In this document: positions 1-32,743 of the stretch, piece after piece
How positions within the stretch are numbered: position 1 is the stretch's first letter
Layout of the letters: each line of letters begins with the position of its first letter
From: a virus
Virus record (IMG/VR): IMGVR_UViG_3300043015_002888
Location: 1-35,581 of that record
Direction: 5' to 3' (one strand)
Length of the DNA: 35,581 nt
Position numbers and translations under genes: made by a program
Notes under the pieces: generated by a model
What the model was told of the DNA's origin: nothing
Database searches by the model: none
The model's input: the letters and a program-made list of their open reading frames with translations, nothing else

Positions 1-112
1 GCCAAGATACGGTGAATAAATCACGGTGCAGCATAGTTCTCTGGCCAAGCGATACTATATTATCAAACGGTATTTTTGTAAAGTCGTATTCCGACCAATT
101 TAATTCAGTCAT
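1..112 (-). CDS. N-terminal fragment of a probable radical SAM protein (runs off the left edge)
   Basis: An ATG at 112 opens a frame that stays open to the window edge, giving 37 residues that begin MTELNWSEYDFTKI and end RDLFTVSW. The start overlaps the stop of the SGNH gene by 8 bases, as is usual in this operon. The last residues, LFTVSW, resemble the stretch just before the cysteine motif in the radical SAM protein at 6399-7526 (NIFQIIWDLGRRC), so the next residues would be expected to hold a CxxxCxxC cluster. The cysteines lie outside the window, so the family call is inference. What is seen is a coupled start and a partial ORF. Confidence 0.5.
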   Translation of the reverse strand, partial: MTELNWSEYDFTKIPFDNIVSLGQRTMLHRDLFTVSW

Positions 113-1028
113 ATACAAAATCGTTATATTTATATTCTACTTCTGCATCCATTGGTATCTCAATATTTTCATCTGGTTCATTAGGATAACTAGAAAAAAA
201 TTTAAATATAACATCGTTTCCTTCTTGATTTGGGTGGCAGCATGGCAAAAGATATTTTTCTGGATCAGTTTTCATATAGTCTATCATGGGTTTTGTATCT
301 GTAATATTTTTTCCGGCAATTACGTTTGTAATTTCTTTAGCCTTATTATACCAATATAAACCCAGATAATCTAAGTCTTCTTTATGCAAACTACCTACAT
401 AATCATGTAAATCTAGTTTTGTTTTTTCATCATTTGTTAATTCTAGGGTATTGGGTATATGTGAAACTGTAGGTAATGCTTTACCATGTATAATAGAAAT
501 ATTATTACGTTTACATAAATCATTTATTAAATACATGTTTCTATAACTATCTTCGATAATATCATTAAAGAATAATACGGTTTTGTTCGGCTGTTTATAG
601 TCTATTATTTTTTTCCTATAAAAGTGTCGCAACTCAGCTCCAACACGATAATTTTCAATATGATATTCTTTACCATCATCAATTAATTGTTCTAAGTGCT
701 CTATACTTGGAACAATTAAATCAATCATAGCCCTAGATTGATTATTCCATGGATTTAGCCTTCTACCTTCTGACCACAATATCATAACAATACAATTATC
801 ATAATAATCAGCATGTAGATAGTGTTTATAAATCGCATCCATTGTTTGATTTGCAATAAATCCATTTGATGCTCCACCTTGGCCAGCATTAACTACATCA
901 CAATCAAAATGTTTTGCAACTTTATAAGGCCAAAGTTGAATATTTTTTATTTGGTACCAATGAGAACCAGCAATATCTGTCCAGCTATCACCACCGACTA
1001 TTAATAATGTTTTAGAAGACTTTGACAT
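105..1028 (-). CDS. SGNH/GDSL-type hydrolase
   Basis: A 307-residue protein. Near the N-terminus, LLIVGGDSWTD carries the GDS block with candidate nucleophile Ser15, followed by NAGQGGASN (residues 47-55), which fits the conserved Gly and Asn blocks. Near the C-terminus CCHPNQEGN holds His265, the likely catalytic His. SGNH enzymes remove or transfer acyl and acetyl groups on glycans and small molecules; the substrate here is unknown. I chose the ATG at 1028 over a TTG at 1061: it gives the normal beginning for this fold and only a 17-base overlap with the carbamoyltransferase stop. It is coupled to the carbamoyltransferase upstream, so the two may act on the same product. No signal peptide is seen, which suggests a cytoplasmic role. 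Confidence 0.72.
   Translation of the reverse strand: MSKSSKTLLIVGGDSWTDIAGSHWYQIKNIQLWPYKVAKHFDCDVVNAGQGGASNGFIANQTMDAIYKHYLHADYYDNCIVMILWSEGRRLNPWNNQSRAMIDLIVPSIEHLEQLIDDGKEYHIENYRVGAELRHFYRKKIIDYKQPNKTVLFFNDIIEDSYRNMYLINDLCKRNNISIIHGKALPTVSHIPNTLELTNDEKTKLDLHDYVGSLHKEDLDYLGLYWYNKAKEITNVIAGKNITDTKPMIDYMKTDPEKYLLPCCHPNQEGNDVIFKFFSSYPNEPDENIEIPMDAEVEYKYNDFVYD
127..134 (-). promoter_or_regulatory. Possible late promoter element inside the SGNH gene
   Basis: The minus strand reads TATAAATA, the T4-type late promoter octamer, 15 bases upstream of the partial gene starting at 112. It lies in the coding sequence of the SGNH gene (codons for Glu-Tyr-Lys-Tyr), where such a string can arise from composition alone. 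It would leave a leader of only about 9 bases. Kept as a weak candidate. Confidence 0.22.
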
Positions 1029-2352
1029 TATACATATTCTCAAAGTGATAAGCGTCTTCAATAGTGTTAACCATTGGTTGCCCTTTAATATTTAAAGAAC
1101 TATTTAATAACATAGGGCATTTAGTTAACTCATACCATTCTTCTAAAATTTTTCGAAGAATTGAATCACAATCTTTTTTCACAACTTGAACTCTTGCAGT
1201 TCCATCGACATGTGTCACAGATTCATATGGATGTAAAGCCCTTGCAGTAAATTGCATATATTCATTAACTGGGCCATCAAAATACTCTTCTACATATTCT
1301 TCTAATATAGCCGGAGCAAACGGTCTAAACTGTTGTCTTTTTTTAATATTATTAACTAAAGTTTTTGTGTGGTTTAACATTGGATTAGCTAATAGAGACC
1401 GATTGCCTAAAGCTCTTGGCCCAAATTCTGCTTTACCGTTTGCAATTCCGCAAATAATATTTTTATTAATGTATTCTGCAATTTCCCTAGGATTAACTTC
1501 TTTCTTAATATTCGTACCTAAATACGGAGATTTCCAATTTATTTTTTTATCATATATTTTAGCAGCAGCTCCAAGTGCACTTCCGGCATCTCCAGGATTT
1601 GGCATAATCCACATATCTTTTATTTGATTTAAATTTCTGACTTTAGTGTTTGCTACACAGTTAAGCGCGCAACCTCCCATCAATATTAATTGATTATGAT
1701 TGCAATATGTTTTTACTAATTTAATTAACTCTTGTTCATACCAATATTGAATTGATGCAGCAATATCTTCTCTTTTTCCTTGTATTGGTCCAATGCCTTT
1801 ATGACAATTCGTTTCTAATAAATACGAAAAATCAATTGTCGGTTCTCCATATGCAGATAATCCCATAACAATATATTCTTCTTCCATTGGTTTAAACCCA
1901 AGCGAAGCAGTAACTGCAGAATACGCCAATCCTAATGATTGCGGGTATTCATGAATAATTGTTTTTTCCCATATACCATTTTGAACATCGTATAAAACTG
2001 TTGCTTGATTTTCTCCAATAGCATCGACAACTAGTATATTGCAATAATCAAAACTACTAGTAGAATATCCAGCCCACGCGTGGGCATCATGGTGATTCAC
2101 CTCAGCATCAACTCTTATGTTTTCTTTTAATGGAGATTGACCTGCAGTTTTTCTTCTTGCATGAACATTAGATTTTATCTCGTGACCAACTACTATATCA
2201 GCTTTTGGTAATAAATCTGGATTTAACCATTTTTCATTTTTAACTTTAGAATGCCGTTCGGCATGATGAGCTTCAATAATATTACCATCTTCAATAAGAC
2301 ACCATGCAGCATCATGTGATCCTTCAGAAATTCCTAATATTCTCATTGCCAT
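1012..2352 (-). CDS. NodU/CmcH-family carbamoyltransferase (compact)
   Basis: A 446-residue carbamoyltransferase. The N-terminal Kae1-like ATPase-type domain begins RILGISEGSHDAAWCLI and contains NHHDAHA at residues 86-92, the metal/adenylate-binding histidine motif of NodU, CmcH and TobZ. The C-terminal domain has the conserved FGPRALGNRS segment. The family transfers a carbamoyl group from carbamoyl phosphate, through carbamoyl-AMP, to a hydroxyl of a sugar, antibiotic or, in some phages, a modified base. NodU and TobZ are about 560-570 residues, so this one is short. It overlaps the upstream radical SAM gene by 10 bases; a second ATG at 2346 would give an ATGA overlap. An AGGG lies 4 bases before the first ATG and 10 before the second, so the start is open by two codons. 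The acceptor is not known. Confidence 0.88.
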   Translation of the reverse strand: MAMRILGISEGSHDAAWCLIEDGNIIEAHHAERHSKVKNEKWLNPDLLPKADIVVGHEIKSNVHARRKTAGQSPLKENIRVDAEVNHHDAHAWAGYSTSSFDYCNILVVDAIGENQATVLYDVQNGIWEKTIIHEYPQSLGLAYSAVTASLGFKPMEEEYIVMGLSAYGEPTIDFSYLLETNCHKGIGPIQGKREDIAASIQYWYEQELIKLVKTYCNHNQLILMGGCALNCVANTKVRNLNQIKDMWIMPNPGDAGSALGAAAKIYDKKINWKSPYLGTNIKKEVNPREIAEYINKNIICGIANGKAEFGPRALGNRSLLANPMLNHTKTLVNNIKKRQQFRPFAPAILEEYVEEYFDGPVNEYMQFTARALHPYESVTHVDGTARVQVVKKDCDSILRKILEEWYELTKCPMLLNSSLNIKGQPMVNTIEDAYHFENMYNVKVF

Positions 2353-3410
2353 TGTGCCCTAAAAGGATCAAATCCAACATTACATTTTAATCCGCATGTT
2401 TTCATTCGACCATTCTTAATACCTTCTATGTTCCATCTTTTTTCAATATCATTAAAGAAAGATCCATTTAATATATCTTGAATTGGTGTTTGAAGCGCAT
2501 TAATAGTTTTCACTCCTCCATTCTCCTCTATTACTTTATATTCCTGGCTATCTTCTATTTCTCTCCACCATTTATATAATTGACCGTGTATCCAACAACA
2601 AGGCATAACATGGCCTTCAGCTGAAATATAAATTTCTTTTTTCTTTACACATTTTGGTTCAATTTCTGCAACTTCAATAAAATTATCCATTGACCCATAT
2701 TTTTCAACTATTTTATCGTAATCACCCATTGCTTTATTTTTATATTTAGGATCTGACGGCTGGGATAATAAAGCAGTTTCTTCACCTTTACGATTTACTG
2801 CTTGGTGGTTTTCTCTTTTTTCTAATGAATATGTATTAATATATCTACCAGACTTTTTAACTACAAAATCTTTAACACCGATTAGTTGTGCAAATTGCTG
2901 TGCTTCTTCTACTTGATGTTCGTTATAGTTAAAAACTAAGAATGTCCATTTTGCATGTCCTCCGGCATCAGTAAATGCTTGGAGATTATTTTCAACTATT
3001 TTCCATTGAACTCCTTGGCGATATAAATGATTTGTATCTTCTAAACCATCAATTGAAAACTCAACATAATCTACAACCTTTGCTAATTGTTCCCACCATT
3101 CAGGCTTCCTAGCACCACCATTTGTAATAAGAGATAATTTAATTTTAGAATTCATTTCTCTAAAATATTGCATAATCTCGAGTGTATCTGGAGCAAGTAT
3201 AGGATCTCCATGATTGCCGCACATAAAAATATGCTTTAGTTGTTTTACAAACTCTGGTGGAAATATTGTCTTACATTGTTCAAGCGAAACAGAATGACCA
3301 TTTAAATGTTGATTAACTTCACCGCCATTTTTATTTCTATCACACATCGGGCAAGATGCTTGGCATAATTGTGTAGGTTCAAAATGTACTCTTTCAACTT
3401 CGTATATCAT
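2343..3410 (-). CDS. Radical SAM/SPASM-type protein (paralogue A1)
   Basis: A 355-residue radical SAM enzyme. The [4Fe-4S] motif is Cys16-x3-Cys20-x2-Cys23 (LCQASCPMC). The GNHGDPILAP segment and the SLITNGG strand fit the SAM-binding barrel. The C-terminal third has further cysteines (CVKKKEIY, GHVMPCCW and CGLKCN) in the arrangement of a SPASM/twitch auxiliary cluster domain. It is one of three paralogues in this operon, with 3407-4519 and 7513-8514, which share an FxIDGLEDTxHxYR stretch followed by AFxDAGGxAxW. SPASM members usually act on peptides but some act on sugars or other small molecules; the substrate is unknown. It has ATGA overlaps with both neighbours, so its translation is coupled. 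Confidence 0.87.
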   Translation of the reverse strand: MIYEVERVHFEPTQLCQASCPMCDRNKNGGEVNQHLNGHSVSLEQCKTIFPPEFVKQLKHIFMCGNHGDPILAPDTLEIMQYFREMNSKIKLSLITNGGARKPEWWEQLAKVVDYVEFSIDGLEDTNHLYRQGVQWKIVENNLQAFTDAGGHAKWTFLVFNYNEHQVEEAQQFAQLIGVKDFVVKKSGRYINTYSLEKRENHQAVNRKGEETALLSQPSDPKYKNKAMGDYDKIVEKYGSMDNFIEVAEIEPKCVKKKEIYISAEGHVMPCCWIHGQLYKWWREIEDSQEYKVIEENGGVKTINALQTPIQDILNGSFFNDIEKRWNIEGIKNGRMKTCGLKCNVGFDPFRAQWQ

Positions 3411-4519
3411 ATTGCTTCAAATTGTATATTATTTAACTTTGCACATTTTTCAGTACATTTTTTTAGCTTTGGATTAATTACATCGTAATAGCTATTTGTT
3501 AAACTATCTGGTAAGTCATGTATAAAATATTGATGATTCATAATATTATAAATTGAATGATAGTTTAAATTATTCCAGTCTTTTTCGTATAAAGCTTCAG
3601 ATCCATAATATCTTTTCCATTTATTAGCGTCATCATGTTCATAATTATTATTATCTTTAAAATAATGTACGCGAGCTTCAATATGACAACACCTCCAAAC
3701 CGTTCCATCGTGGCTAATTTGAACTCTTTTATATTTTTCCCATTGGCACGATATCGGTAACGAATCTTTTATTTCTTCATGCGCTTTATCTGTAGTTATA
3801 ATATTATTAGTATCAAAATAAGATTTTATTATTTGTTTAATCTGATTTAATTTATATAAATCATGATTATTTTCATCGTATAAGTTTGATTTTTTATTTT
3901 CTTTACCGACTAATTCTGATATTACCGCATCTAATGCGGGTTTCCAATAGCGAGAAGTTTTATTTCTTTTAAAAGCAGCAAATCCGTATTCATTTGCTAA
4001 TTCCCTTGCTCTATTTTCGTATATCGCATTCCATTCAAAAGGAATCATTTTCCAAATTGCAATTCCGCCTTCATCGATAAAAGCTTTAGCATTGATTAAT
4101 ATTTTATCAAAACTAGTATTTACTCTATAGCGTGAGTGCGTTTCGTTATCTATTCCATCTATGCCAAATACAACGAAACTCTTATCAAATTTTGATAATA
4201 TTTTAGCTAACTGCTTCCACCAATCCGGATTTCGGTATGAACCATTTGTGCTAATCATAAGTTGAATATTCGGACATAAACTAGCAGTTATTTCCATCAT
4301 TTCTAAAAAATGTGGATGCATTAAACTATCACCATAATTACCGTTAAAAGAAATTAATTTCAATGTATTTTTTAAATCACTAATTAATTTTTCATAGACA
4401 CCAATATTTAAATTACAGTTTTTAGGTATATTTGTTATTTTATACGAAGGATCCCTTAAACAACCTGGGCATGCAGCATTACAATTACTAGTTGTTTCAA
4501 TTTGTAATTCCTCTAACAT
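3407..4519 (-). CDS. Radical SAM/SPASM-type protein (paralogue A2)
   Basis: A 370-residue radical SAM enzyme. The cluster motif is Cys13-x3-Cys17-x2-Cys20 in TTSNCNAACPGC. It shares with its paralogues the FNGNYGDSLMHP segment, MISTNGS, FGIDGIDNETHSRYR and the FIDEGGIAIWKMIPFEWN stretch. The C-terminal part has SCQWEKYKRV, VWRCCHIE and CTEKCAKL, again SPASM-like auxiliary cysteines. It carries an insertion of roughly 40 residues, rich in Asn, Lys and Asp, around residues 200-245 that the other two lack, so it may have diverged in substrate. The start overlaps the stop of the PP-loop gene upstream by one base (TAATG). Confidence 0.86.
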   Translation of the reverse strand: MLEELQIETTSNCNAACPGCLRDPSYKITNIPKNCNLNIGVYEKLISDLKNTLKLISFNGNYGDSLMHPHFLEMMEITASLCPNIQLMISTNGSYRNPDWWKQLAKILSKFDKSFVVFGIDGIDNETHSRYRVNTSFDKILINAKAFIDEGGIAIWKMIPFEWNAIYENRARELANEYGFAAFKRNKTSRYWKPALDAVISELVGKENKKSNLYDENNHDLYKLNQIKQIIKSYFDTNNIITTDKAHEEIKDSLPISCQWEKYKRVQISHDGTVWRCCHIEARVHYFKDNNNYEHDDANKWKRYYGSEALYEKDWNNLNYHSIYNIMNHQYFIHDLPDSLTNSYYDVINPKLKKCTEKCAKLNNIQFEAI

Positions 4520-5220
4520 TAGTCTAAAGATCCAAATCCGTATATACGCTCTTTACACCACCAGCATTTTCCACATTGTTTTTGAAAATTATCGGTTGAG
4601 CTCGGACCACCTTCACATGACCTTGTTAATGGAAATAGTGTGTTTCTCACGTTAAGTAAGTCATAAAGTTCGGCAATTTTCTTTTTATCATGATACGTAA
4701 ATGGATATGATTTCCAAGTAAAATGCCTGGTTTTACCTTGTTGAAAATAAAATTCATTTGTTTTATCAGCATCCTGGTCTCTAGCCCTATCTCTTTTTTC
4801 CCATATACTTCTGTTTTCTATTGGATCCCATCCCCAATCAACGTCTGATTCTAATGGATTTGCGGTGACGCCTCCAAATATAATTTCAAACCATCCTTTA
4901 TATTCTTCAGTTTTTTCTACCCAAGCCTGAGAAGTAACATAAGTTTCTTTTGTACATGGTACTTCTATTAAAGGTCGGATATCGATATCTGAATACTTAT
5001 TTCTAGTAAACTCTAATACTTTTTTTACGTGCACTGGATTCCAAGGTTTTACATCCATATTAACCGTTAAAGGCTGAATGTAAGATTCTCCTGGTATTCT
5101 TTCTGCGCGAATCGTTTCACATAATAATTGTAATAAAATTGCGCTATCTGCACCACCAGAAATACGCAATCCTATTTTATTAAAATTTTGTATATTAATA
5201 TCAATATCTGCAAATTTCAT
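4519..5220 (-). CDS. QueC-like PP-loop ATPase (copy 1)
   Basis: A 233-residue N-type ATP pyrophosphatase. The PP-loop SGGADSA (residues 21-27) follows the first strand, IGLRI. The C-terminus has Cys202 and Cys216-x2-Cys219-x2-Cys222 (CGKCWWCKER), the four-cysteine zinc site seen in QueC, 7-cyano-7-deazaguanine synthase. Enzymes of this fold activate a carboxylate or amide through an adenylate. It is a close relative of 9035-9736: same length, three cysteines at identical positions, and a shared LFPLTRSCE block. An AAGGA lies 7 bases before the ATG. It overlaps the twitch radical SAM gene upstream by 20 bases. No other queuosine-pathway gene is in the window, so the substrate may differ from that of QueC. 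Confidence 0.82.
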   Translation of the reverse strand: MKFADIDINIQNFNKIGLRISGGADSAILLQLLCETIRAERIPGESYIQPLTVNMDVKPWNPVHVKKVLEFTRNKYSDIDIRPLIEVPCTKETYVTSQAWVEKTEEYKGWFEIIFGGVTANPLESDVDWGWDPIENRSIWEKRDRARDQDADKTNEFYFQQGKTRHFTWKSYPFTYHDKKKIAELYDLLNVRNTLFPLTRSCEGGPSSTDNFQKQCGKCWWCKERIYGFGSLD

Positions 5221-6406
5221 TTTTATTCCTTATAGAGTCTAAAAACTCAACAAACCTATAATCTAGACAATGATAATCTTGGTTTCTTTGTTTATCAAGT
5301 ATTAATGTAGTTTCTAATAATTCGTTATGCTTAGTTTTACTTTCTTCATGTTCTAACATTAAATAATCAATTAAATCTTCTCTAACTTGATGGTCATACC
5401 AACTTTTATCACATTTAGTAACGATTTCATATGCTGCAGATTTAAGTAGATCGCCCGGTAAATATTTTACATTTAATTCACTTCCATCAGGTTTTAATTG
5501 GTAATCAACCGAAAAGAAAAGTTTCGATCTAATTGACCAATGATACATGTTGACAATATCATATAAATTATATGGCTGTAGTATTGCTGAAACTCTTGGC
5601 TGAGTAAATACCTTAGGATATACTTTAATAAATTCTTTAAGATTATCTATCGATTTATTAAACAAATCCCAGCTACTACCCCATCGTATATAATCATATA
5701 CTTCTTTTGTTCCATCCATACTAATATTAAAATCTACTCTTCTAAATTTAGATAACTTATTTAATAACGGCTTATTAAATTTAGTAGCATTAGTTGTTAA
5801 CATAATTTGTAAATTTTTATTAAATTCATTTTCAATACACCAATCAATAATGTCTAAAAATGCCCTAGATGCAAATGGTTCACCGCCTGTTACCTTTAAT
5901 ACTTCGAGACCATTTTCAATTGCATTTTTTACAAATTCTTTTTTTTCTATTTCTCGAGAATCTTCAATATACAACGGTCTATTTCTTAAAAAATGAGGCT
6001 TTTCATTTTTAGGTTTGTTTTTAAATATATCTTCTATTTTTGATGAGTCGGAGGGATGACACATTCTACATGCTAAATTACACTTCGTAGAAAATTTAAT
6101 ATCAATATATTTTAAGTGAGGTATATCGTAATTGGTTTCTGGTATTGCTGTTTTACCTAGGGTTGTTTGTCTAGGCGATTTAAGTCCTTCGGCTTCTTTC
6201 CATTTACAAACTTGACATATTTTTGGCCATTCATCATTTAATAATTGATTCCGCATTTCTTTATATACTTCTGATTCTAAACCTTCAATAAAATCAGATT
6301 TGCGCCATGTCATTTTATCATGTTCTAAATAACTCATACAACAAGGCTGTACAGTAGAACATGTATTAATAGTCATATGTACCCAAGGTAAAGGACACTT
6401 AATCAT
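5201..6406 (-). CDS. Twitch-domain radical SAM protein (copy 1)
   Basis: A 401-residue protein with an N-terminal cysteine-rich section (CPLPWVHMTIN with Cys4, then Cys16, CC at 22-23 and CQVC at 64-67) that resembles a twitch/SPASM auxiliary cluster placed before the barrel. The radical SAM motif follows at Cys109-x3-Cys113-x2-Cys116 (KCNLACRMCHPSDSS), with KVTGGEPF and LTTNATKF as the next barrel elements. NCBI-style annotation of marine phages has a class of twitch-domain radical SAM proteins with this layout. It pairs with the QueC-like gene downstream; the same pair occurs at 9035-11142. It overlaps the upstream gene by 8 bases. The substrate is unknown. Confidence 0.86.
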   Translation of the reverse strand: MIKCPLPWVHMTINTCSTVQPCCMSYLEHDKMTWRKSDFIEGLESEVYKEMRNQLLNDEWPKICQVCKWKEAEGLKSPRQTTLGKTAIPETNYDIPHLKYIDIKFSTKCNLACRMCHPSDSSKIEDIFKNKPKNEKPHFLRNRPLYIEDSREIEKKEFVKNAIENGLEVLKVTGGEPFASRAFLDIIDWCIENEFNKNLQIMLTTNATKFNKPLLNKLSKFRRVDFNISMDGTKEVYDYIRWGSSWDLFNKSIDNLKEFIKVYPKVFTQPRVSAILQPYNLYDIVNMYHWSIRSKLFFSVDYQLKPDGSELNVKYLPGDLLKSAAYEIVTKCDKSWYDHQVREDLIDYLMLEHEESKTKHNELLETTLILDKQRNQDYHCLDYRFVEFLDSIRNKNEICRY

Positions 6407-7526
6407 TTTTTTCTTTTACTGGAGTTCCCAGACCTATATCGATTGCACGCATTGTGGTTTGTATTGGGTTAAATTTAGTATAATGTTCATTATGATCGGT
6501 TTCGATTAGTTTAATATATTGGGTTTTATCTGACAATATGTTATTTAATGTAGAAAAATCTTGGGCTTTATCTACACACATACCGCATCCACAGAATTTT
6601 TTTGGGCATTTAATAACTGGAAATGTTTTATTAGTATACATTTGTTCTAAATAATCGATCATTTTTCCAGTATCATCTAAATTTCCTATAGGTCCAACAT
6701 CGTTCATATGATTTACTTGGCATGTTTGATGAATAAAAACATCTCTACTTTCTTGGCTAATACATAAAAAATACCAATTTACTGCACATGACCACCCATT
6801 AAAATTAGTATCTTCTAAAAAATAAGTTTCACCGCTAGGATGTTTAAACATTCTCTTACCGCAACATGCTCTACCGTTCCTTGCGTCTTTCACACCAAAA
6901 AAATCTGCAAACCATTGTTCTTGCTCTTCGGTATAGATATGTGTATAACCATTTCGGATTGACCATTCAGATCCACCATCATCACCGATTCTTCTAGGAA
7001 TGTATTTAATTCCTTCATCTTCTAGCATTTTACAAATATCGATACAATGATCAAAATAATCTTTGTGAAACATTACGTTTACTTTCCAACGTAATTGTTT
7101 TATAGTTGGAATAACTAAATCGTCGCCACCTTCTGGATGATATGATATCGTTCCTCCATCACAAATTTTCTGTGCTAAATTCCGTTGCCTTTTGCCAAAA
7201 GCACCGTTAGTCGTCATATTAAATTTAAACTTTTTCCCATAAGTTTTTTTAACATATTCACCAAATTTCCAAAAGTCCGGATGTACTGTTGGTTCACCAC
7301 CAGTAAATGAAATATATCTTTGATACTTAAAATCATCTTTACGAAATGATTCATATATGTCAATATACTCATCAATAAATTCTATAGTCTCTACAAATTC
7401 GTCAAATTGAACTAGTCTAGAATGTTTATTATTTCTGTGAGGTGGGCAATACGAGCAAGCATAGGTGCACCTTCTACCTAAATCCCATATGATTTGAAAT
7501 ATATTTCTTTGATCATTTACATACAT
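6399..7526 (-). CDS. Radical SAM protein of a third type
   Basis: A 375-residue radical SAM enzyme with Cys20-x3-Cys24-x2-Cys27 in DLGRRCTYACSYCPPHRNNK. Barrel features include SFTGGEPTVHPDF, NMTTNGAFG and a GTISYHPEGGDD segment. Towards the C-terminus it has a cysteine set (CQVNHM, and CPKKFCGCGMC) that could hold an extra cluster. It differs from the three SPASM paralogues and the two twitch proteins, and its N-terminal approach to the cysteines is like that of the partial gene at the left edge. It overlaps the upstream gene by 14 bases. The function is not recognisable beyond the superfamily. Confidence 0.84.
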   Translation of the reverse strand: MYVNDQRNIFQIIWDLGRRCTYACSYCPPHRNNKHSRLVQFDEFVETIEFIDEYIDIYESFRKDDFKYQRYISFTGGEPTVHPDFWKFGEYVKKTYGKKFKFNMTTNGAFGKRQRNLAQKICDGGTISYHPEGGDDLVIPTIKQLRWKVNVMFHKDYFDHCIDICKMLEDEGIKYIPRRIGDDGGSEWSIRNGYTHIYTEEQEQWFADFFGVKDARNGRACCGKRMFKHPSGETYFLEDTNFNGWSCAVNWYFLCISQESRDVFIHQTCQVNHMNDVGPIGNLDDTGKMIDYLEQMYTNKTFPVIKCPKKFCGCGMCVDKAQDFSTLNNILSDKTQYIKLIETDHNEHYTKFNPIQTTMRAIDIGLGTPVKEKND

Positions 7527-8514
7527 TATTTTTTACTTTTTCCATATCATATTTGTTAGGATTATATCTATTTTCAAATTCATCACGGATATTGTGTTTA
7601 CATTTTTGTGCGCATTCAGGTAAAGGGTTATCAGTTTCCCATTTATCGATAATACTAGTCCATAAATCACCTTCAATTACTTCTTCAACCGAATTGTAGT
7701 ATAAACTAATTCCCAACTCGCCTTCGCACTCATCTAAAAGTCTTCTATAATCAGAACGAGTGTTTCTATCAGCAATGTACCTCATAGTAGGACCATTAAC
7801 ATAACAACAAGGCACAAGCATTCCCATATGATTTACAAATATTCTTTCCTGATGGCCGTATTTACATTTAATAACAGATTGTGTAGTTTTTTCAGTTCTA
7901 TCCGTGTTTATAATTTTATTTGGGTCTTTATAAGTATTTCGGGTCGATCTAATAATTTTAAATTTACTAAATCCTAATTCTATCGATAATTGTTCTGCTT
8001 TTTCTAATTGATGTTTATTATGTTCAAATTCAATGAATTGCCAATTAGCAATTCCTCCAGCATCCATAAAAGCTTTTGCGTTATTGATTACTTTTTTATA
8101 ACTAGATCCTTCTCTATATATGTGATGGGTATCTTCTAATCCATCAATTCCAAAGGTGATAGCGTGTGTTGTATCTTTCAATTTTTCACCAAGTTGTGTC
8201 CACCATTTTGTAGTTCTTAGCGACCCATTTGTTGCAACATTAATATGGCAATTCCATGTTTTAAAATAATCAATAATTTTAAAAAAATCTGGATGAGTAC
8301 AAGGTTCGTCAACAGATCCACAAAAATTAATAATCCGCATACTAGGAAAATCTTCTTTTTTAAATCTTTCTACAATTAACTCATATGGAAGAATATCTTT
8401 ATTTAAAACTCTTGGTGCGGATTCATTAGTTTCTCTCCAACATCCATTGCATTTAATATTGCAAAAACTAGTGAGTTCAAAATCAATCCATTCTATATCA
8501 TTTATTTTCCACAC
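7513..8514 (-). CDS. Radical SAM/SPASM-type protein (paralogue A3), GTG start
   Basis: A 333-residue radical SAM enzyme with Cys18-x3-Cys22-x2-Cys25 (SFCNIKCNGCWRE). It shares with 2343-3410 and 3407-4519 the segments INFCGSVDEPCTHPDF, NVATNGSLR, FGIDGLEDTHHIYREG and AFMDAGGIANWQFIEFEHN. C-terminal cysteines (KCKYGHQE, LVPCCYVN and CAQKCKHN) indicate an auxiliary cluster domain. The start is a GTG at 8514: there is no nearby in-frame ATG, and a GGAG sits 8 bases upstream inside the end of the kinase-like gene, which supports it. It overlaps that gene by 13 bases. Confidence 0.85.
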   Translation of the reverse strand: MWKINDIEWIDFELTSFCNIKCNGCWRETNESAPRVLNKDILPYELIVERFKKEDFPSMRIINFCGSVDEPCTHPDFFKIIDYFKTWNCHINVATNGSLRTTKWWTQLGEKLKDTTHAITFGIDGLEDTHHIYREGSSYKKVINNAKAFMDAGGIANWQFIEFEHNKHQLEKAEQLSIELGFSKFKIIRSTRNTYKDPNKIINTDRTEKTTQSVIKCKYGHQERIFVNHMGMLVPCCYVNGPTMRYIADRNTRSDYRRLLDECEGELGISLYYNSVEEVIEGDLWTSIIDKWETDNPLPECAQKCKHNIRDEFENRYNPNKYDMEKVKNNVCK

Positions 8515-9038
8515 TCTTTAAACTCCATAATTATGTCATGCCAATCATGTTTCTTTTTAATTAAAGGTGAAGTCATATCATTATGTAATCTTAAAACTTC
8601 AGAAACTGGTTTATCAATCATTTTGTAATAGCAGTGAGATACTAATACGGGGTATATAGTAATTGAATCTGGATCAATTACTTTCCATATATTATTATGA
8701 ACTAAGATATTACTTAAGTTTAAATCTAAATGAAACAAATAACAATTATGGTCATATGAGAATTTACTGAATTTATATAATATTTCAGTCATTTTGTGAA
8801 TATATTCGTTATGCCTCATACCAGTACCTGGTTGAAGTTCTTCACCTTCAATCTTTTCCATAATCATATACGTATTATCACCTTCGTAGATTTTAGGTGT
8901 TATTCCGTATTCATCTACAAATTTTTTATAATAATTATACCAATCTTCGTCTAAATGATGAATTGGTTTTTTAAATTCTTTATGAATTAAATTATCTTTT
9001 AATTCAACTCTTACTCGGGGATCATCTTTTAATATCAT
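8502..9038 (-). CDS. Small kinase-fold phosphotransferase-like protein
   Basis: A 178-residue protein that looks like a stripped-down protein-kinase or aminoglycoside-phosphotransferase fold. YMIMEKIEGEEL (residues 57-68) fits the hinge, HLDLNLSNILV (103-113) fits the catalytic loop HxDxxxxN with Asp105 and Asn110, and KVIDPDSI (119-126) stands where the metal-binding DFG or DxD would be. The N-terminal lobe is very short and I see no glycine-rich loop, so ATP binding may be unusual. It starts with an ATGA overlap on the PP-loop gene and so belongs to the same operon. It may phosphorylate the pathway intermediate or an operon partner; both are inference. Confidence 0.6.
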   Translation of the reverse strand: MILKDDPRVRVELKDNLIHKEFKKPIHHLDEDWYNYYKKFVDEYGITPKIYEGDNTYMIMEKIEGEELQPGTGMRHNEYIHKMTEILYKFSKFSYDHNCYLFHLDLNLSNILVHNNIWKVIDPDSITIYPVLVSHCYYKMIDKPVSEVLRLHNDMTSPLIKKKHDWHDIIMEFKECGK

Positions 9039-9736
9039 TCTAATTTACCAAATGCCCATTCTCTTTCACTACACCACCAGCACCAACCGCAATGTCCTAT
9101 TAAACCATTAGGATCTTCGCAAGATCGTGTTAGCGGAAATAATGTTTCAATTAAACCTTCATCTTTATAAACTTTGGCTACACCTTTTTTATCAGTATTT
9201 CTAAATGGCTCTATCAATTCTAATCCGGATGGTTTCTTATAAACCCATTGTCTCCATCCATGGTGCTGTCCTCTAGATTTTTCAGCTGTTCCTGGTACAC
9301 CATCCCAACCTAATTGTATTTGCAATTCTATAGGTGGATTAAGAGTTGTTCCATTATACACTCTTTGTATAATTCCATCCGAATATAATTCCTCTTGTAA
9401 ATTATAAAAAAAGTCACGATCCCATTCTTCATCGCCGTCATAATTATCCATAGGAGGATAATGAATAAAATGATCTTTATACTGATAATTAAAATGATTT
9501 TCTAAAAATTCTACGACTTCAGATGCAAAATACGGGTTAGAGGGTTTTGGTCTTCTCATAGTAAGCGGTATTATTTCTATATCTAAGTTTTTTTCTATTA
9601 TCTCTTTAGTAACTAAATATAGCATTAAAGAAGAATCAACACCACCACTACACCATACACCTACTGTTTTAATGTCAATTCCAGTATTTGTTGGTACAAT
9701 AGTTTCCGGAACCGGAGATGGAATTATAGGTACCAT
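9035..9736 (-). CDS. QueC-like PP-loop ATPase (copy 2)
   Basis: A 233-residue N-type ATP pyrophosphatase. The PP-loop SGGVDSS lies at residues 30-36 after VGVWC. The C-terminal cysteines are Cys206, then Cys216-x2-Cys219-x2-Cys222 (CGWCWWCSER), after the block LFPLTRSCE. I take the ATG at 9736 rather than the TTG at 9745: this gives exactly the length of copy 1 (4519-5220) and puts three cysteines at the same residue numbers. It overlaps the twitch radical SAM gene upstream by 13 bases. It resembles QueC, but with no neighbouring queuosine genes the acid or amide it activates is open. Confidence 0.82.
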   Translation of the reverse strand: MVPIIPSPVPETIVPTNTGIDIKTVGVWCSGGVDSSLMLYLVTKEIIEKNLDIEIIPLTMRRPKPSNPYFASEVVEFLENHFNYQYKDHFIHYPPMDNYDGDEEWDRDFFYNLQEELYSDGIIQRVYNGTTLNPPIELQIQLGWDGVPGTAEKSRGQHHGWRQWVYKKPSGLELIEPFRNTDKKGVAKVYKDEGLIETLFPLTRSCEDPNGLIGHCGWCWWCSEREWAFGKLE

Positions 9737-11142
9737 TCTAGCCAATCCATTTCTGAATAAATTTCGTTAAATTTTAATCCACGCATTTCTGCAACTCTGT
9801 AACACCATTCTGCCATTTCCGGTAAACGTTGCGACCAGTCTTCGGCGTCCATAAAATTTAATAAACCTTCAAATCGCTTAATGCCATATTCTGATTCACG
9901 CCATGTTTCATAACTAATACCAGCTTCTTCTACACCGGTACATTTTTGCCAATTTTCTTCTAACCAAGGAAATAATTCTTCTTCCCATTTAGTTCGCACA
10001 TCGCGTTTAAACCATTCTGGTAATGCTTTTACATTGAGTTGCGGCGGCCAATAAGCAAGATGACAAGAAAAAATACCGGCACCATTTGGCCATTTATTTA
10101 GATTCTTAAATCCACTATTAATTTTCCATTTAATAAACTCAGGCATATAATAATAGTTAAGAGAAATGCCGGTCCATGCGGTCGTGAGTGTTAAATTATC
10201 ATAAGGATAATTATCAAGTTTATGCAATTGTGTTTCAACCTCATCCCAATTAGATGGGTATCTAACATAATGCAAACGATCTTCGATATCATCAATCGAG
10301 AAGTGAAAAATAACTTTATCAAATTCTTTCCAAAGTTCAAATAAATCTTCTCTCCATTCAAGTCCATTTGAGTTATAGCGCAATTCGATTTGGCTAGCAT
10401 ATCCCATTTCAATAACTTTTTCAAGGATTTCGTAATGCTCTTTCATAATAAGAGCTTCACCACCAGCCCAATACAATTGTTCTAATGTAGGAATCTGTGT
10501 ATAAAGCTCAGGCAAAAACATTTTATTCTTTTTATGCCACGCATATGAACCACCAGTCCATGCTAACTTACCGGTATCTTTCTCCCACCCGTGCGTGAAG
10601 CGAAGTTTTTCATTAATCAGTTTTGGATAAATCTGTTTATGTTCTTTAACCCATCCAGACGAATCATGAGGAGAACACATAACACAAGCTAATTGGCATT
10701 TAGAACCAAGGCGTAAATCAATATAGCGAACACGTGGGGGAACTTCACCGGTTTCAGGATTATAATCTTGTAAGATTTCTTCTAATCCAACTTTATCAAT
10801 CCATTTTTTAGTTTCCCATTGCCTCTTTGATCGATGGCCGGCTTCTTCTTCTTTAAAACACTTTATACAAGATGTAGGTTTTTCTCCGCGCATCATAGCT
10901 TTACGTGTTTCACACATATAAGTATTATTCCAAGCATCTAAAAGAGATGTATGGGCTAGATTTGCTGGTTTACCGTCGTCTTTACGAAGCACGCCGGCAT
11001 CTGAAGCGGTTTTATTAGTAGAGTCTGCATTCTGAACACCTGAAGCATTTGCAGTACAGCAAACCCTCATATGACCGTTTGGTCGGGTAGAGATGTGCAT
11101 CCACGGTAAAGCGCAGAAGGTATCAGAAGGGAAATCACTCAT
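9724..11142 (-). CDS. Twitch-domain radical SAM protein (copy 2), first gene of the operon
   Basis: A 472-residue protein with the layout of copy 1. An N-terminal cysteine-rich section (FCALPWMHIS, then VCC and CIKC) is followed by the radical SAM motif at about Cys149-x3-Cys153-x2-Cys156 (KCQLACVMCSPHDSSGW), then YWAGGEALI and YNSNGLEW. The C-terminal part is Trp-rich. The ATG at 11142 is preferred to that at 11148, because the AAGG lies 8 bases before the former and only 2 before the latter. It is the first gene of the leftward operon and sits behind the divergent promoter region at 11143-11181. Confidence 0.86.
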   Translation of the reverse strand: MSDFPSDTFCALPWMHISTRPNGHMRVCCTANASGVQNADSTNKTASDAGVLRKDDGKPANLAHTSLLDAWNNTYMCETRKAMMRGEKPTSCIKCFKEEEAGHRSKRQWETKKWIDKVGLEEILQDYNPETGEVPPRVRYIDLRLGSKCQLACVMCSPHDSSGWVKEHKQIYPKLINEKLRFTHGWEKDTGKLAWTGGSYAWHKKNKMFLPELYTQIPTLEQLYWAGGEALIMKEHYEILEKVIEMGYASQIELRYNSNGLEWREDLFELWKEFDKVIFHFSIDDIEDRLHYVRYPSNWDEVETQLHKLDNYPYDNLTLTTAWTGISLNYYYMPEFIKWKINSGFKNLNKWPNGAGIFSCHLAYWPPQLNVKALPEWFKRDVRTKWEEELFPWLEENWQKCTGVEEAGISYETWRESEYGIKRFEGLLNFMDAEDWSQRLPEMAEWCYRVAEMRGLKFNEIYSEMDWLEWYL

Positions 11143-11181
11143 ATACATAACCTTATATTATAATGCATAGGATTATATATC
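11143..11181. promoter_or_regulatory. Divergent promoter region between the radical SAM operon and the methyltransferase/glycosyltransferase operon
   Basis: The only gap between two divergent operons, 39 bases long. It contains overlapping -10-like hexamers: TATAAT on the plus strand at 11159-11164 and TATAAT on the minus strand at 11162-11157. No exact late octamer TATAAATA is present, which hints at a non-late class of expression. AGGA at 11169-11172 is the ribosome site for the plus gene and AAGG at 11153-11150 that for the minus gene. No -35 box is convincing, and on either strand it would lie partly in the opposite gene. Confidence 0.5.
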
Positions 11182-12015
11182 ATGTTTGAAAACACTTTGA
11201 ATTGGGTAAGAGGTTTATCCGAATATTTGAATTTCGTTGGTGATGAGGATGCAAAAAAGTTTGTAGACTTTATTGAAAAATGTATGTATGCGGAGCAACC
11301 TGTTATTAATGCGACAAATGATGCTGGCATGGTTGAGTTTATTAGTGTGCTCAGAAAGTTTACACCTAATGAAATTTTCGATATCTTCCATAAATATTTT
11401 CGATCAGGTGAAGATCCAGCAATTATTCAAGATGCATTTAGCCGTGGCCAAGTATTAAGTAAAATATGGTTAGTCACAGAACTTGCAAAAATTCAAAAAG
11501 ATTTTAAAATGATTCATGTTCATGCCGGATGGATGGGACAAATCAGATTGTATTTAGACCAAGTAGATATTAATTATGATAAAATGAGAATATTCGATAT
11601 TGATCCAATTGTAATGAAACTCAGTGATAAAGTATTTAATAATGAGCTTTTAGAAAATTGGAAAGTTAAGTCAGCCTATTTTGATATTACAGATACAGAA
11701 CAATTATATAGAACTGGTTATGAATATAAATGTGCAGATACGGTTATAGAAAAATCGATTCCAGACTGTGTAATTAGTACTAGTTGCGAGCATTTTAGTG
11801 ATAACTGGTATCATAAATTAAAAATTAAATCTGAAGGTTGGGGAAATCTAATAGCTATTCAAACTAATAACTTTCATAAAATTGAAGACCATATTAACAC
11901 TGTACATTCTCTACAAGAAGTAAAAATAAAATATCCTATGGATGAGATTTTTTATGAAGGTGAACTTGAACTAAATGGATACACCCGTTATATGCTAATT
12001 GGTAAAAATAAATGA
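11182..12015 (+). CDS. Class I SAM-dependent methyltransferase-like protein
   Basis: A 277-residue protein with a helical N-terminal part of about 105 residues and then a Rossmann-type core. IHVHAGWMGQ (111-120) stands in the first-strand, SAM-loop position, RIFDIDP (136-142) has the acidic residue that ends strand 2, and PDCVISTSCEHF fits strand 4 with the catalytic region. The Gly loop is weaker than the classical GxGxG, so cofactor binding is inferred. It opens the plus-strand operon with an AGGA 9 bases before the ATG. The glycosyltransferase-like gene follows with an ATGA overlap. Methylation of a sugar or of the product of the neighbouring operon is possible. Confidence 0.55.
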   Translation: MFENTLNWVRGLSEYLNFVGDEDAKKFVDFIEKCMYAEQPVINATNDAGMVEFISVLRKFTPNEIFDIFHKYFRSGEDPAIIQDAFSRGQVLSKIWLVTELAKIQKDFKMIHVHAGWMGQIRLYLDQVDINYDKMRIFDIDPIVMKLSDKVFNNELLENWKVKSAYFDITDTEQLYRTGYEYKCADTVIEKSIPDCVISTSCEHFSDNWYHKLKIKSEGWGNLIAIQTNNFHKIEDHINTVHSLQEVKIKYPMDEIFYEGELELNGYTRYMLIGKNK

Positions 12016-12698
12016 ACTTTTTTACATTAAAATGGGGTACTAAGTACGGTCCAGAATACGTAAATAGGTTATACGGATCTTTATTGGTTCACTATAAAAA
12101 ACCATTTACACTTACGTGCTATACAGATAATCGTACCGGCATGCGAGAAGAAGTACAATTAGAACATATTGATATACTTCGCCCATATAATACAGATCGT
12201 GTATTTACATATGAAAAACTAAAATTAATGGATCACCATGAAACCGGCATATGGCTTGATTTAGATATTCTTATTCACGAAGATATCACGGATGTAGAAC
12301 CGATTGGTGATTTTACTATGATATGGAATCATTGGAATCCGTTGAGTCGATCATATGATTGGTATGGCAAAGGAACTTCATGCCATGTGAATAGTTCGTT
12401 TGTTTATTGGAATAACCCAGAATGGCTAAAGAAATTTACTCATGATAATTGGAGTAAGATTCAATTTACATATAAGTCACTTGACAAATATATGTTTTAC
12501 CAACATCACCGGAATGAAAGGCTAAACTATTGGCCTAAAGATTTAGTTTCAAACTATAATAAAGAATGGTTTGAACTTAGAAATAAAATTACGTTATTCA
12601 ATACGTCTCATATCAAAGCAAATAATTTAAATGAAGTTGGTTACGAATTGCATGAAGCAAAAGATGAAGTGGTGGAATTATGGAAGAGTTACTCTTAG
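12012..12698 (+). CDS. GT-A type glycosyltransferase-like protein 1
   Basis: A 228-residue protein with the features of a small GT-A glycosyltransferase. FFTLKWGTKYGPEYVNRLYG opens the nucleotide-binding half, TLTCYTDN follows, and WLDLDILIHED (81-91) contains the DxD metal/nucleotide-sugar motif (Asp83, Asp85). The later stretch HVNSSFVYWN is typical of the acceptor half in GT8-like proteins. Such enzymes transfer a sugar from a nucleotide donor; the acceptor could be DNA, a virion protein or a surface glycan. It overlaps the methyltransferase-like gene (ATGA) and the next gene (19 bases). Confidence 0.65.
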   Translation: MNFFTLKWGTKYGPEYVNRLYGSLLVHYKKPFTLTCYTDNRTGMREEVQLEHIDILRPYNTDRVFTYEKLKLMDHHETGIWLDLDILIHEDITDVEPIGDFTMIWNHWNPLSRSYDWYGKGTSCHVNSSFVYWNNPEWLKKFTHDNWSKIQFTYKSLDKYMFYQHHRNERLNYWPKDLVSNYNKEWFELRNKITLFNTSHIKANNLNEVGYELHEAKDEVVELWKSYS

Positions 12699-13078
12699 AA
12701 TATGATACGGTAACATTAGTTGCATGCAATGATAAAAAAGAGTTAATCAATAATCTAATTAGTATGGGTATTGAAGTTAGAGCGTATGATTACGATCCAT
12801 TTTTTAACGACACTGAAAATTATGAAATAAAAGACTTTGTATTTGATAATGTCGAGTTAAAAGGATGCGTTGTTAACTTTAATTGCGAGAAGACATATCC
12901 TCTTGGGTTAATTTATGAAGGCGATATGATTTTAATTGGAGATAATGATCAGCACAATGGTGATTGCAATCCTATTACTTCTTGTGAACAGCTAATTAAA
13001 CAAAATAATATAAACAAAGTTTATAATTCATATATTAATGGAAAACATTTTATAGTACATGGAACTAATATTAGTTAA
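12680..13078 (+). CDS. Small protein resembling the core of the neighbouring methyltransferase
   Basis: A 132-residue protein that I do not recognise as a named family. It follows the same order as the core of 11182-12015: a strand with VTLVACNDKKEL, then VRAYDYDPFF where the other has RIFDIDP, then GCVVNFNCEKTYPL where the other has DCVISTSCEHF. It ends with ILIGDNDQHNGDCNP and a short strand. The N-terminal helical domain is missing. It may be a minimal methyltransferase relative or a non-catalytic partner. GGTGGA lies just before its ATG, and it overlaps both neighbours by about 20 bases. Confidence 0.45.
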   Translation: MEELLLEYDTVTLVACNDKKELINNLISMGIEVRAYDYDPFFNDTENYEIKDFVFDNVELKGCVVNFNCEKTYPLGLIYEGDMILIGDNDQHNGDCNPITSCEQLIKQNNINKVYNSYINGKHFIVHGTNIS

Positions 13079-13607
13079 TACTCCACCAAAATATGGTGAC
13101 CAATGGTGGACAGATAATATCATCTATATGCTCAAAGGTAATTTACAGATTGACTCTGTTAAAATAATTACCGATTCTCAATTAGGTGGAGTATATGATA
13201 AATTACGGATATTTAAAGAGTGCAAACATATAGCAACTCAGTATCTTTACTTAGACTTAGATGTTTTAATTAAAGGTGACATTTCGCATCTCCTTAGAAC
13301 TGAATTTACCTTATTAGAAGCTTGGTGGAGATATCCAGCGCATACACCTTTAAATAGTTCTATTATGAGTTGGCTTGGTGATTGTTCTTACATATATAAT
13401 AAATTTATGGAAGACTTTGACTATAACATGGTAAAGTATTATCGTGGTATTGATGAGTTCATTTATAAAGAAATAAAATATTGTACATATGAGAAAGTTT
13501 GTGATACAATAAGATGGGATTACGGGGGTGGACAGTATTCAGTTACTCTTTATAACGATAGTTTAGAAGAATTTAAGAAATGCAAAGAGTGTTTGCCGTA
13601 CGAATAG
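13059..13607 (+). CDS. GT-A type glycosyltransferase-like protein 2
   Basis: A 182-residue protein, the shortest of the three GT-A-like proteins here. LILVNTPPKYGDQWW begins the fold, VKIITDS and YDKLRIF follow, and YLYLDLDVLIKGD (63-75) holds the DxD motif (Asp66, Asp68). LEAWWRYPAHTPLNSSIMSW matches the region after the DxD in protein 1. A C-terminal acceptor region appears reduced, so it may be a partial or specialised enzyme. It overlaps its neighbours by 20 and 28 bases. Confidence 0.55.
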   Translation: MELILVNTPPKYGDQWWTDNIIYMLKGNLQIDSVKIITDSQLGGVYDKLRIFKECKHIATQYLYLDLDVLIKGDISHLLRTEFTLLEAWWRYPAHTPLNSSIMSWLGDCSYIYNKFMEDFDYNMVKYYRGIDEFIYKEIKYCTYEKVCDTIRWDYGGGQYSVTLYNDSLEEFKKCKECLPYE

Positions 13608-14248
13608 GCGATAAGTATGGTCCTCACTATGAGGATTATATTAATTCTAAAATTCCAAATGTAACATGGATTCGCGAAGAATCCATTGGTAAATTACAAT
13701 GGAATAAATTAATTCCTATGAATATGAATATCGATGAACCAGTGGTTGTCATTGATATAGACATGTTTTTTATCAATGACTACATGGATGTAATTAATTA
13801 TCCTATCCAAAGAGGTGAATTTGTATCCATGCCTGGATGGTGGCAAGATGCAAAAGGATATACATTGCAGGGCGGATTTCAAAAATATTATCCAAAAGAC
13901 TGTAAGTATATCTTTGATGAGTTTACTAGTAAACCAGATTACTGGATGGAATATTACATTAAAAACGGTACTACAATTGGTCCAGTTAATGGTGAGCAAT
14001 ATTTTATTGAGGATCAAGTAAAGAAAATATTAAAACTTAAACTAATACCAGAAACATGGGTTTCTAGATGGGAAGCTAATATGTCTGAACGATTAGAATT
14101 TAGTTTAAATCTTCACTATAATGCTAGTTATCTACGTTTAGGACAGGAATTTTATCCAGATCTGAAGATACTTCATTTCCTAGATCAGGGATCGCTGCAT
14201 GCAGATGAGCTAAAAGCTCTGGAACAGTCTTTGCTTTACGTAAACTAG
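13580..14248 (+). CDS. GT-A type glycosyltransferase-like protein 3
   Basis: A 222-residue protein with VFAVRIGDKYGPHYEDY at the start, similar to protein 1, KLQWNKLIPM, and VVVIDIDMFFIND (55-67) with DxD residues Asp59 and Asp61. SMPGWWQDAKGYTLQGGFQKY follows, and the end LKILHFLDQG is like the closing strand of GT8-type enzymes. Its last 125 bases overlap, in the opposite direction, the end of the coiled-coil gene at 14124-14798. It is the last gene of the plus-strand operon. Confidence 0.6.
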   Translation: MQRVFAVRIGDKYGPHYEDYINSKIPNVTWIREESIGKLQWNKLIPMNMNIDEPVVVIDIDMFFINDYMDVINYPIQRGEFVSMPGWWQDAKGYTLQGGFQKYYPKDCKYIFDEFTSKPDYWMEYYIKNGTTIGPVNGEQYFIEDQVKKILKLKLIPETWVSRWEANMSERLEFSLNLHYNASYLRLGQEFYPDLKILHFLDQGSLHADELKALEQSLLYVN

Positions 14249-14798
14249 CCTTCATCTCGCGATCTTTTGAATTTTTAATCTGATCTAATTCAAATATTTC
14301 TAATTTTAACTTAAAGAAACTTGCTTTATCTTCAGCCAAATTTAAAATAATTCTTAATGTGGTAGGAGTTCGTTTTTCAACTATTTTTTCAACAATTTTA
14401 TCGACTGCAATTTCTTTTTCAACTACCTTTTCAATTTCTTTTTCAACTACCTTTTCAACTATAACTTCTTTAGGCTTTGCTTTTAATTGTTCTTCTAGCT
14501 CTTGTATTTTAGTTTTGCTTTCTTTCCAATTTTTCCAATCTAAATAAGATTCTAAAAATTGTTGAAATAAAACTTCTCTTTCACCTTGATATTTGTTATA
14601 ATCATTTGTATTTTGTGTGATATCAGCTTCAGTATATAATGTTTTAACTCTTTTAGCTAACTCGTCGTTTTCGTTACTAATCGATATAACGGGAACTTCG
14701 GTTATTTTATCACTTTCAAAAAATACTTTTGCAAGAGTGTGATCTAAATCTACCCAAATAACATTTGCAATTTTTGATTTATTATTCCATTTAGCCAT
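14124..14798 (-). CDS. Coiled-coil protein beside the virion genes, function unknown
   Basis: A 224-residue protein of no recognised family. It has a short folded N-terminal part with WVDLDHTLAKVFF, a helical middle (residues 75-110, KIQELEEQLKAK), then a repetitive Val-Glu-Lys region at 111-143 built on EKVVEKEI units, and a basic C-terminal part with IKNSKDREMKASLRKAKTVPE. It is the last gene of the leftward structural operon, so a tail-fibre-associated or accessory virion role is possible. The final 41 residues are encoded antisense to the glycosyltransferase-like gene at 13580-14248. These may be an extension gained by loss of an earlier stop. An AGGG lies 9 bases before the ATG. Confidence 0.7.
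   Translation of the reverse strand: MAKWNNKSKIANVIWVDLDHTLAKVFFESDKITEVPVISISNENDELAKRVKTLYTEADITQNTNDYNKYQGEREVLFQQFLESYLDWKNWKESKTKIQELEEQLKAKPKEVIVEKVVEKEIEKVVEKEIAVDKIVEKIVEKRTPTTLRIILNLAEDKASFFKLKLEIFELDQIKNSKDREMKASLRKAKTVPELLAHLHAAIPDLGNEVSSDLDKIPVLNVDN
14411..14458. repeat. Perfect 24-base tandem duplication in the coiled-coil gene
   Basis: Two identical 24-base units lie head to tail at 14411-14434 and 14435-14458 (minus strand unit starts TTGAAAAGGTAGTTG). They encode the repeated octapeptide EKVVEKEI. The units are identical at every base including wobble positions, so the duplication is recent or kept by slippage. Neighbouring VEK units are degenerate copies. Confidence 0.9.
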
Positions 14799-22897: not shown

Positions 22898-22909
22898 TTT
22901 TATTTCCTA

Positions 22910-23728: not shown

Positions 23729-23755
23729 TTTACACCTATTAAAATTATACTATTT

Positions 23756-23763
23756 TATTTATA
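23756..23763 (-). promoter_or_regulatory. T4-type late promoter before the gp10-like gene
   Basis: The minus strand reads TATAAATA, the octamer used by the T4 late sigma factor gp55. It ends 27 bases before the ATG at 23728, giving a leader of about 22 bases with a TAGGTG ribosome site. The TAA inside the octamer is also the stop codon of the gp7-like gene. Exact match and position make it convincing; no transcript data are available. Confidence 0.72.
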
Positions 23764-26994: not shown

Positions 26995-27013
26995 TATAGA
27001 ATCTCTTTTCTTT

Positions 27014-27021
27014 TATTTATA
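27014..27021 (-). promoter_or_regulatory. T4-type late promoter before gene 25
   Basis: The minus strand reads TATAAATA 20 bases before the ATG at 26994, with a predicted start point near 27008 and a short leader holding an AAGAGA ribosome site. The TAA stop of the 329-residue gene is formed by the middle of the octamer, just as at 23756-23763. This is an exact match to the T4 late consensus in a 22-base gap. Confidence 0.75.
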
Positions 27022-28006: not shown

Positions 28007-28008
28007 TG

Positions 28009-32696: not shown

Positions 32697-32728
32697 TTGT
32701 AAACCTATACATAGAAGTAGTTTAGTTT

Positions 32729-32736: not shown

Positions 32737-32743
32737 TGGTTAT

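Follow-up and report, generated by a model that had tools for sequence, protein, structure and literature searches.

A radical SAM-rich operon of a T4-like phage and its proposed part in making an unusual glycan

What does an uncultured marine T4-like phage make with six radical S-adenosylmethionine (SAM) enzymes encoded in one operon? The question is raised by virus record IMGVR_UViG_3300043015_002888 of IMG/VR, a linear record of 35.6 kb (35,581 nucleotides) that we analysed over its whole length and call the window. We consider it reasonably probable that this operon and an adjoining glycosyltransferase/methyltransferase operon on the opposite strand constitute a modular pathway with which the phage makes or modifies an unusual glycan. 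As judged from sequence and gene association, one unit comprises six iron-sulphur radical SAM enzymes, a NodU-type O-carbamoyltransferase and two QueC-like ligases that use ATP; the radical SAM families are tightly linked to predicted glycosyltransferases. The glycan would probably lie on the host envelope, and possibly on the virion.

Eleven minus-strand genes fill positions 105-11148, each overlapping its neighbour by 1-50 bases, which confirms the single run of coupled genes reported in a preliminary description of this DNA. Their third-position G+C is low throughout, as coding sequence of an AT-rich genome should show. On its left, the operon is truncated by the start of the contig. From its first gene onwards, the operon reads:

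9724..11148, minus strand: twi_2, N-terminal-twitch radical SAM enzyme (NF033640 5.3e-109, 365 bits)
9035..9745, minus strand: PPl_2, QueC-like PP-loop ATPase (PF06508 4.4e-05, marginally over the cut-off; C..CxxCxxC zinc-type motif; alignment invariants)
8502..9038, minus strand: small kinase-fold-like protein, weakly supported (Bud32 6.4e-05, KdkA 0.07, Pkinase 0.0015, all below cut-offs; HLDLNLSN, an HxDxxxxN motif)
7513..8514, minus strand: rSAM_D, radical SAM enzyme with SPASM-like C-terminal cysteines (PF04055 2.5e-10)
6399..7526, minus strand: rSAM_C, radical SAM enzyme with a cysteine-rich C-terminal half (PF04055 1.5e-12)
5201..6406, minus strand: twi_1, second N-terminal-twitch radical SAM enzyme (NF033640 2.8e-70, 237 bits)
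4519..5220, minus strand: PPl_1, QueC-like PP-loop ATPase, paralogue of PPl_2 (33% identity)
3407..4519, minus strand: rSAM_B, radical SAM/SPASM paralogue (PF04055 3.4e-08; about 32% identity to rSAM_D)
2343..3410, minus strand: rSAM_A, radical SAM/SPASM enzyme (PF04055 1.1e-12; SPASM 1.9e-4, over the cut-off)
1012..2352, minus strand: NodU-type O-carbamoyltransferase (PF16861 3.4e-47; PF02543 3e-36; phrog_1601 4.2e-85)
105..1061, minus strand: SGNH/GDSL-like hydrolase, tentative (GDSL 0.064; GDS and GxxGxSN motifs)

All six radical SAM proteins contain CxxxCxxC and score above the Pfam Radical_SAM cut-off; the preliminary description had counted 'six or seven', but the window yielded no seventh. 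Only twi_1 and twi_2 exceed the curated cut-off of NF033640 (170 bits), the other four falling below it. The three radical SAM/SPASM proteins are paralogues, about 32% identical. In an alignment of 19 sequences, residues C30, C31, C94, C97, C151, C155 and C158 of twi_2 are invariant. The cysteines of rSAM_A are invariant among its relatives, as are many C-terminal cysteines of rSAM_C (eight sequences), which probably form auxiliary clusters.

Most of the other activities named at the outset were also recovered. Both PP-loop proteins carry SGGxDS and C(x)nCxxCxxC motifs, and their top solved-structure match is Cap9 (2.7e-6). The QueC substrate motifs YxQxHxxE, VPxRN and YPDC (PMC13329287) are absent from PPl_1, PPl_2 and 30/30 aligned family members. 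The window's PP-loop proteins retain the ATP and zinc motifs, but not those for a 7-deazaguanine substrate; no queuosine or CBASS (cyclic-oligonucleotide-based anti-phage signalling system) partners were recognised in the window. The NodU-type protein has both the Carbam_trans_N and Carbam_trans_C domains with their SHDA, HHDAH and EFGPRALGNRS motifs. NodU-type enzymes carbamoylate sugars. The kinase and SGNH assignments held less well: the characteristic motifs listed above are present in both, but the profile scores are weak, and the DxxH block of the SGNH-like protein was not found by pattern.

Are these genes inherited together? Viral scans with single proteins gave nothing, and alignments of paralogues were required as queries. 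A scan with the two PP-loop proteins yielded 23 loci, most of which hold relatives of the window's radical SAM families, and the twi_2 alignment found at least 599 relatives in IMG/VR. Among the best 80 loci, the sample counted for each bait, the steadiest partner of twi_2 was rSAM_A (70), followed by a family that we call c6 (60), twi_1 (57), the methyltransferase-like family c4 (55), rSAM_C (50) and the PP-loop family (34); rSAM_D was present in 33/80 homologous loci. In the 75 viral loci of at least 10 kb, the counts were 66 for rSAM_A, 56 for c6, 53 for c4 and 34 for the PP-loop family. Up to 13 open reading frames with the radical SAM motif were packed within 21 kb. With c6 as bait, radical SAM families occurred in 59/60 loci of at least 10 kb and a uridine diphosphate (UDP)-sugar dehydrogenase in 22/60 (28/80 of all loci). 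When the baseplate gene gp6 was used as a control bait, radical SAM families were found in 0/41 loci (Fisher 1e-27 against the c6 bait), although this control reaches 10 kb from gp6, and the cluster in the window is about 13 kb away from that gene.

These shared gene sets lend strong support to the earlier suggestion of a dedicated pathway, and the proposed search of related marine phage genomes showed that the radical SAM set is co-inherited. Co-inheritance does not extend to every part, however. At the threshold used, NodU was found in 5/80 homologous loci (and also in phages that lack the radical SAM set), the kinase-like gene in 1/80, with weak relatives in two loci (L083 and L152), and the SGNH-like gene in 0/80.

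Two side observations may be added. A virus record of 518,643 bp (G015, L023) contains 21 twitch radical SAM matches and two iron-sulphur (Fe-S) A-type carriers, and one phage-like contig encodes a tryptophan-halogenase-family protein near radical SAM genes (L052:10273-11532; 5e-65). Fe-S A-type carriers occur in some radical SAM-rich virus records. They are absent from a syntenic 161 kb phage contig, described below, and are therefore not a required part.

The link to sugar transfer comes from c6 and from the opposite-strand operon of the window. Previously without annotation, c6 is predicted to adopt a GT-A glycosyltransferase fold (predicted local distance difference test score, pLDDT, 91.7), and its structural matches (Foldseek, VIA) are glycosyltransferases and nucleotidyltransferases, with Z up to 11.6. 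Glycosyltransferases, as looked for in a phage surface-glycan modification cluster, are present in the same gene neighbourhood as the radical SAM set. In the window itself, the opposite-strand operon (11182-14248) encodes:

11182..12015, plus strand: c4, SAM-methyltransferase-like protein (FDIDP motif; profile weakly matches spermidine synthase, 0.025)
12012..12698, plus strand: GT8-like glycosyltransferase (WLDLDILI, a DxD-type motif; invariant D83/D85)
13059..13607, plus strand: glycosyltransferase-like protein (phrog_1962 2.1e-4; GT8 0.007)
13580..14248, plus strand: glycosyltransferase-like protein (60% identical homologue in L086)

Three of these products are probable glycosyltransferases on the strength of motifs and profile matches. 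Homologues of 12012..12698 adjoin the radical SAM operon in three other loci (L086, L087 and L045); database searches with its sequence gave no useful match, and solved-structure sequence searches with the profiles of c6 and the window glycosyltransferases yielded nothing useful. The L087 homologue of 13580..14248 matches the phrog_1962 glycosyltransferase (2.2e-6).

This opposite-strand operon also bears on where the radical SAM genes sit. T4-like baseplate and tail genes occupy about 21.5-32.8 kb of the window, with baseplate genes at about 21530-32750. The radical SAM genes had been described as lying beside the baseplate genes; the latter were confirmed, but the opposite-strand operon and tail genes intervene. 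Among the genes in this interval, 14124-14798 encodes a small protein in which the segment FFKLKLEIFEL..KNSKNR..KA.RKA is conserved. Its relatives lie near tail-fibre-like genes, and it is perhaps a fibre chaperone.

The same arrangement is found in other phages. The 161 kb contig (L032, G001:C1), binned in a Chloroflexi metagenome-assembled genome (MAG), carries T4 gp23 and is therefore a phage, T4-like and near-complete. Its radical SAM cluster (about 24 kb) is followed by homologues of 12012, 12680, 11182, 13059, 13580, 14124 and 14805 and then by neck and baseplate genes, repeating the order in the window. A second contig (L033, G002:C81), binned as an Acidimicrobiaceae MAG, resembles a phage too. 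This points to binning contamination of species-representative genomes. The divergent layout of the window recurs in L086 and L087, which, like the 161 kb phage, keep all three probable glycosyltransferases of the window. In the nearest relatives the operon tends to begin with twi_2, and the genes after it vary. A constant head gene followed by a variable set suggests a diversifying biosynthetic locus and glycan diversification.

Cultured phages offer a more distant parallel. No record with the full set was found among 50,697 phage records searched at the DNA and protein levels, with two exceptions: Vibrio phages have N_Twi-related genes, which are distant, and a single-cell virus has a fragment. 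The search of these records found no cultured phage with either c6 or the window's glycosyltransferase, and plasmids gave no match to the set. In the isolated Vibrio phage K566 (L030), N_Twi-related radical SAM genes are interleaved with GT8, GT4-like and GT8 genes, and close to this block is a gene that bears the annotation PagP, a lipid A acyltransferase. The twi_1 search matched K566 and K567 at five places per record and other Vibrio phages, among the matches listed, at one.

A cellular counterpart exists as well: the same radical SAM module is present in the chromosomes of some predatory bacteria, the Bdellovibrionia, within polysaccharide-type loci. NF033640 occurs in 46/144 Bdellovibrionia genomes, often in many copies and on large chromosomal contigs, and in 1/398 genomes in a sample of the phylum to which a gammaproteobacterial MAG belongs. 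The PP-loop family is found in seven Bdellovibrionia genomes, all of them among the 46 with NF033640 (hypergeometric 2.4e-4). In two of the loci (L074 and L075), rSAM_C, rSAM_A, twi_2 (67% identical to that of phage L018) and c4 are consecutive; in L074, genes for an epimerase, an asparagine synthase, an acyltransferase-SGNH protein and a GT2 enzyme adjoin the module. Both loci also encode a 500-amino-acid protein in which an N-terminal CxxxCxxC region precedes a GT2 domain (L074:13684-15186 and L075:2137-3642); the N-terminal part had no Pfam match. In L057 and L040, c6 adjoins c4. The twi_2 orthologous group is common to marine phages and Bdellovibrionia, and in a tree four Bdellovibrionia proteins branch beside the phage clade, the joint group having a support of 0.994 and weak support inside. 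Other Bdellovibrionia loci (L066, L067 and L070) encode twitch radical SAM proteins of 750-870 amino acids with a long N-terminal extension that has no clear Pfam assignment.

Based on these associations, we have proposed a model for the pathway. Radical SAM enzymes may abstract hydrogen from sugar carbons, leading to epimerisation, deoxygenation or changes in C-C or C-N bonds. The PP-loop enzymes may convert a carboxylate, perhaps that of a uronic acid, to an amide, or activate it in a similar way. NodU would contribute a carbamoyl group, and further groups may be added or trimmed by the proteins that resemble methyltransferases, kinases and SGNH hydrolases. The finished sugar would then be attached by the glycosyltransferases. 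We propose host envelope polysaccharide as the target because of the precedent of the 'host recognition cluster' of T4-like phages; its modification could change a receptor or cause superinfection exclusion. Surface or recognition functions are likewise favoured by the position near tail genes and by what is known of pelagimyophages (PMC7029224). The chief alternative is that the sugar decorates tail or virion proteins.

The preliminary description left the product as a DNA base, a glycan or a small effector. A glycan is now clearly favoured because the loci contain a near-obligate GT-A glycosyltransferase neighbour and a UDP-sugar dehydrogenase, and because homologous modules lie in bacterial polysaccharide-type loci. 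Several findings weigh against this reading. The c6 family is not in the window, whose glycosyltransferases are of another type and weakly matched. The association seen with the c6 bait is biased to radical SAM loci because the seed sequences were taken from them. Some loci hold aspartyl hydroxylases, a Trp halogenase, an AMP-binding enzyme and a B12-radical SAM enzyme, which would also suit peptide or small-molecule tailoring. Lastly, the AlphaFold2 model of twi_2 (pLDDT 83.8) matches radical SAM barrels in general: it resembles the sugar-acting BlsE and DesII, which agrees with a glycan product, but also viperin and peptide maturases, the latter scoring as high as the sugar enzymes (Z 11.4). 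Therefore, the predicted fold does not decide the substrate, and the chemistry of twi_2 cannot be read from it.

The peptide-like matches lead to the strongest rival, in which radical SAM, PP-loop and related enzymes alter side chains of tail-fibre or other structural proteins, or add sugars to them, as in the maturation of ribosomally synthesised and post-translationally modified peptides. SPASM and twitch enzymes commonly act on peptides and head the list of structural matches, several of the tailoring enzymes just named fit this role, and tail genes adjoin the operon. In L083/L084, a tail-fibre-like gene with its small partner precedes twi_2 on the same strand. However, the constant partners of the set are glycosyltransferases, and the bacterial modules lie in polysaccharide-type loci. 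Pfam scans of the window and of sampled neighbours revealed no precursor peptide or recognition domain, small open reading frames not having been searched systematically. Nor was a T4-type late promoter (TATAAATA) enriched upstream of the operons (8/127 observed; shuffle mean 4, maximum 11). We regard virion-protein modification as unlikely. A soluble small molecule made during infection, such as a cofactor, antimicrobial or signalling compound, would account for the diverse tailoring enzymes and for the AMP-binding and halogenase genes of some loci, but the link to glycosyltransferases is constant, and the proteins scanned, in which no systematic search was made, included no recognisable carrier protein, non-ribosomal peptide or polyketide synthase, or exporter; we find this improbable. 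Least credible is DNA hypermodification, with NodU carbamoylating a base and the PP-loop proteins acting as in 7-deazaguanine pathways: their QueC-like fold and cysteine motif would fit, and the preliminary description cited a link between phage NodU-type enzymes and modified bases. Nevertheless, a 7-deazaguanine base is disfavoured because the substrate motifs are missing, phage C48C1, the nearest complete GenBank relative, has NodU and no match to the twitch enzymes, and in bacteria the counterparts occupy polysaccharide-type loci.

If the glycan model is correct, abundant ocean viruses carry radical SAM enzymes in very dense banks that are coupled to sugar transfer. These banks would be a large reservoir of new carbohydrate chemistry, with a likely role in competition among phages and between phages and hosts. 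A concrete, testable role would also emerge for the unexplained 'radical SAM' auxiliary genes in marine viromes, and Bdellovibrionia would be cellular holders of the module that are maybe easier to study. More tentatively, and with rather less confidence than in the pathway itself, we suggest a new class of glycan biosynthesis in which diverse radical SAM banks and QueC-like ligases rebuild sugars. Uncultured marine T4-like phages would carry its interchangeable cassettes by the hundred, and Bdellovibrionia chromosomes would share them; for the phages, they would form a combinatorial arsenal of surface chemistry.

How does this locus compare with known systems? The preliminary description knew of no pathway with this set, and for function that holds in the open-access literature searched, most subscription papers lying outside the search; radical SAM-rich marine T4-like phages, however, have already been reported without a function (PMC5332604, PMC7029224, PMC7150976). 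What appears to be new is the link to glycosyltransferases, together with the modular core and the counterpart in bacteria. Among single families, the window's NodU-type protein shares its domains and motifs with the NodU/NolO O-carbamoyltransferases but is shorter (446 amino acids) and placed in a radical SAM operon. The PP-loop proteins share the SGGxDS loop and C-terminal cysteine motif of QueC and Cap9 (PF06508) and differ from canonical QueC in their missing substrate motifs. NF033640, of which twi_1 and twi_2 are members, is named by NCBIfam for its domain layout and not for a function. Among genomes, the marine T4-like TARA_ERS488813_N000010, with 12 radical SAM genes, is likewise rich in them, and there the genes were treated as an Fe-S protein load accompanied by Fe-S carriers, not as a pathway (PMC5332604). 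In Tasman Sea viromes, radical SAM genes and glycosyltransferases are jointly enriched, with no pathway given (PMC7150976). A further likeness is the host recognition cluster of the pelagimyophages, which are also T4-like marine phages: radical SAM cassettes lie in a variable, glycosyltransferase-rich island by the tail genes, and modification of the lipopolysaccharide O-chain was proposed for the glycosyltransferases (PMC7029224). There the radical SAM cassettes were left without a function, whereas here the radical SAM set is a constant partner of glycosyltransferases and has a bacterial counterpart.

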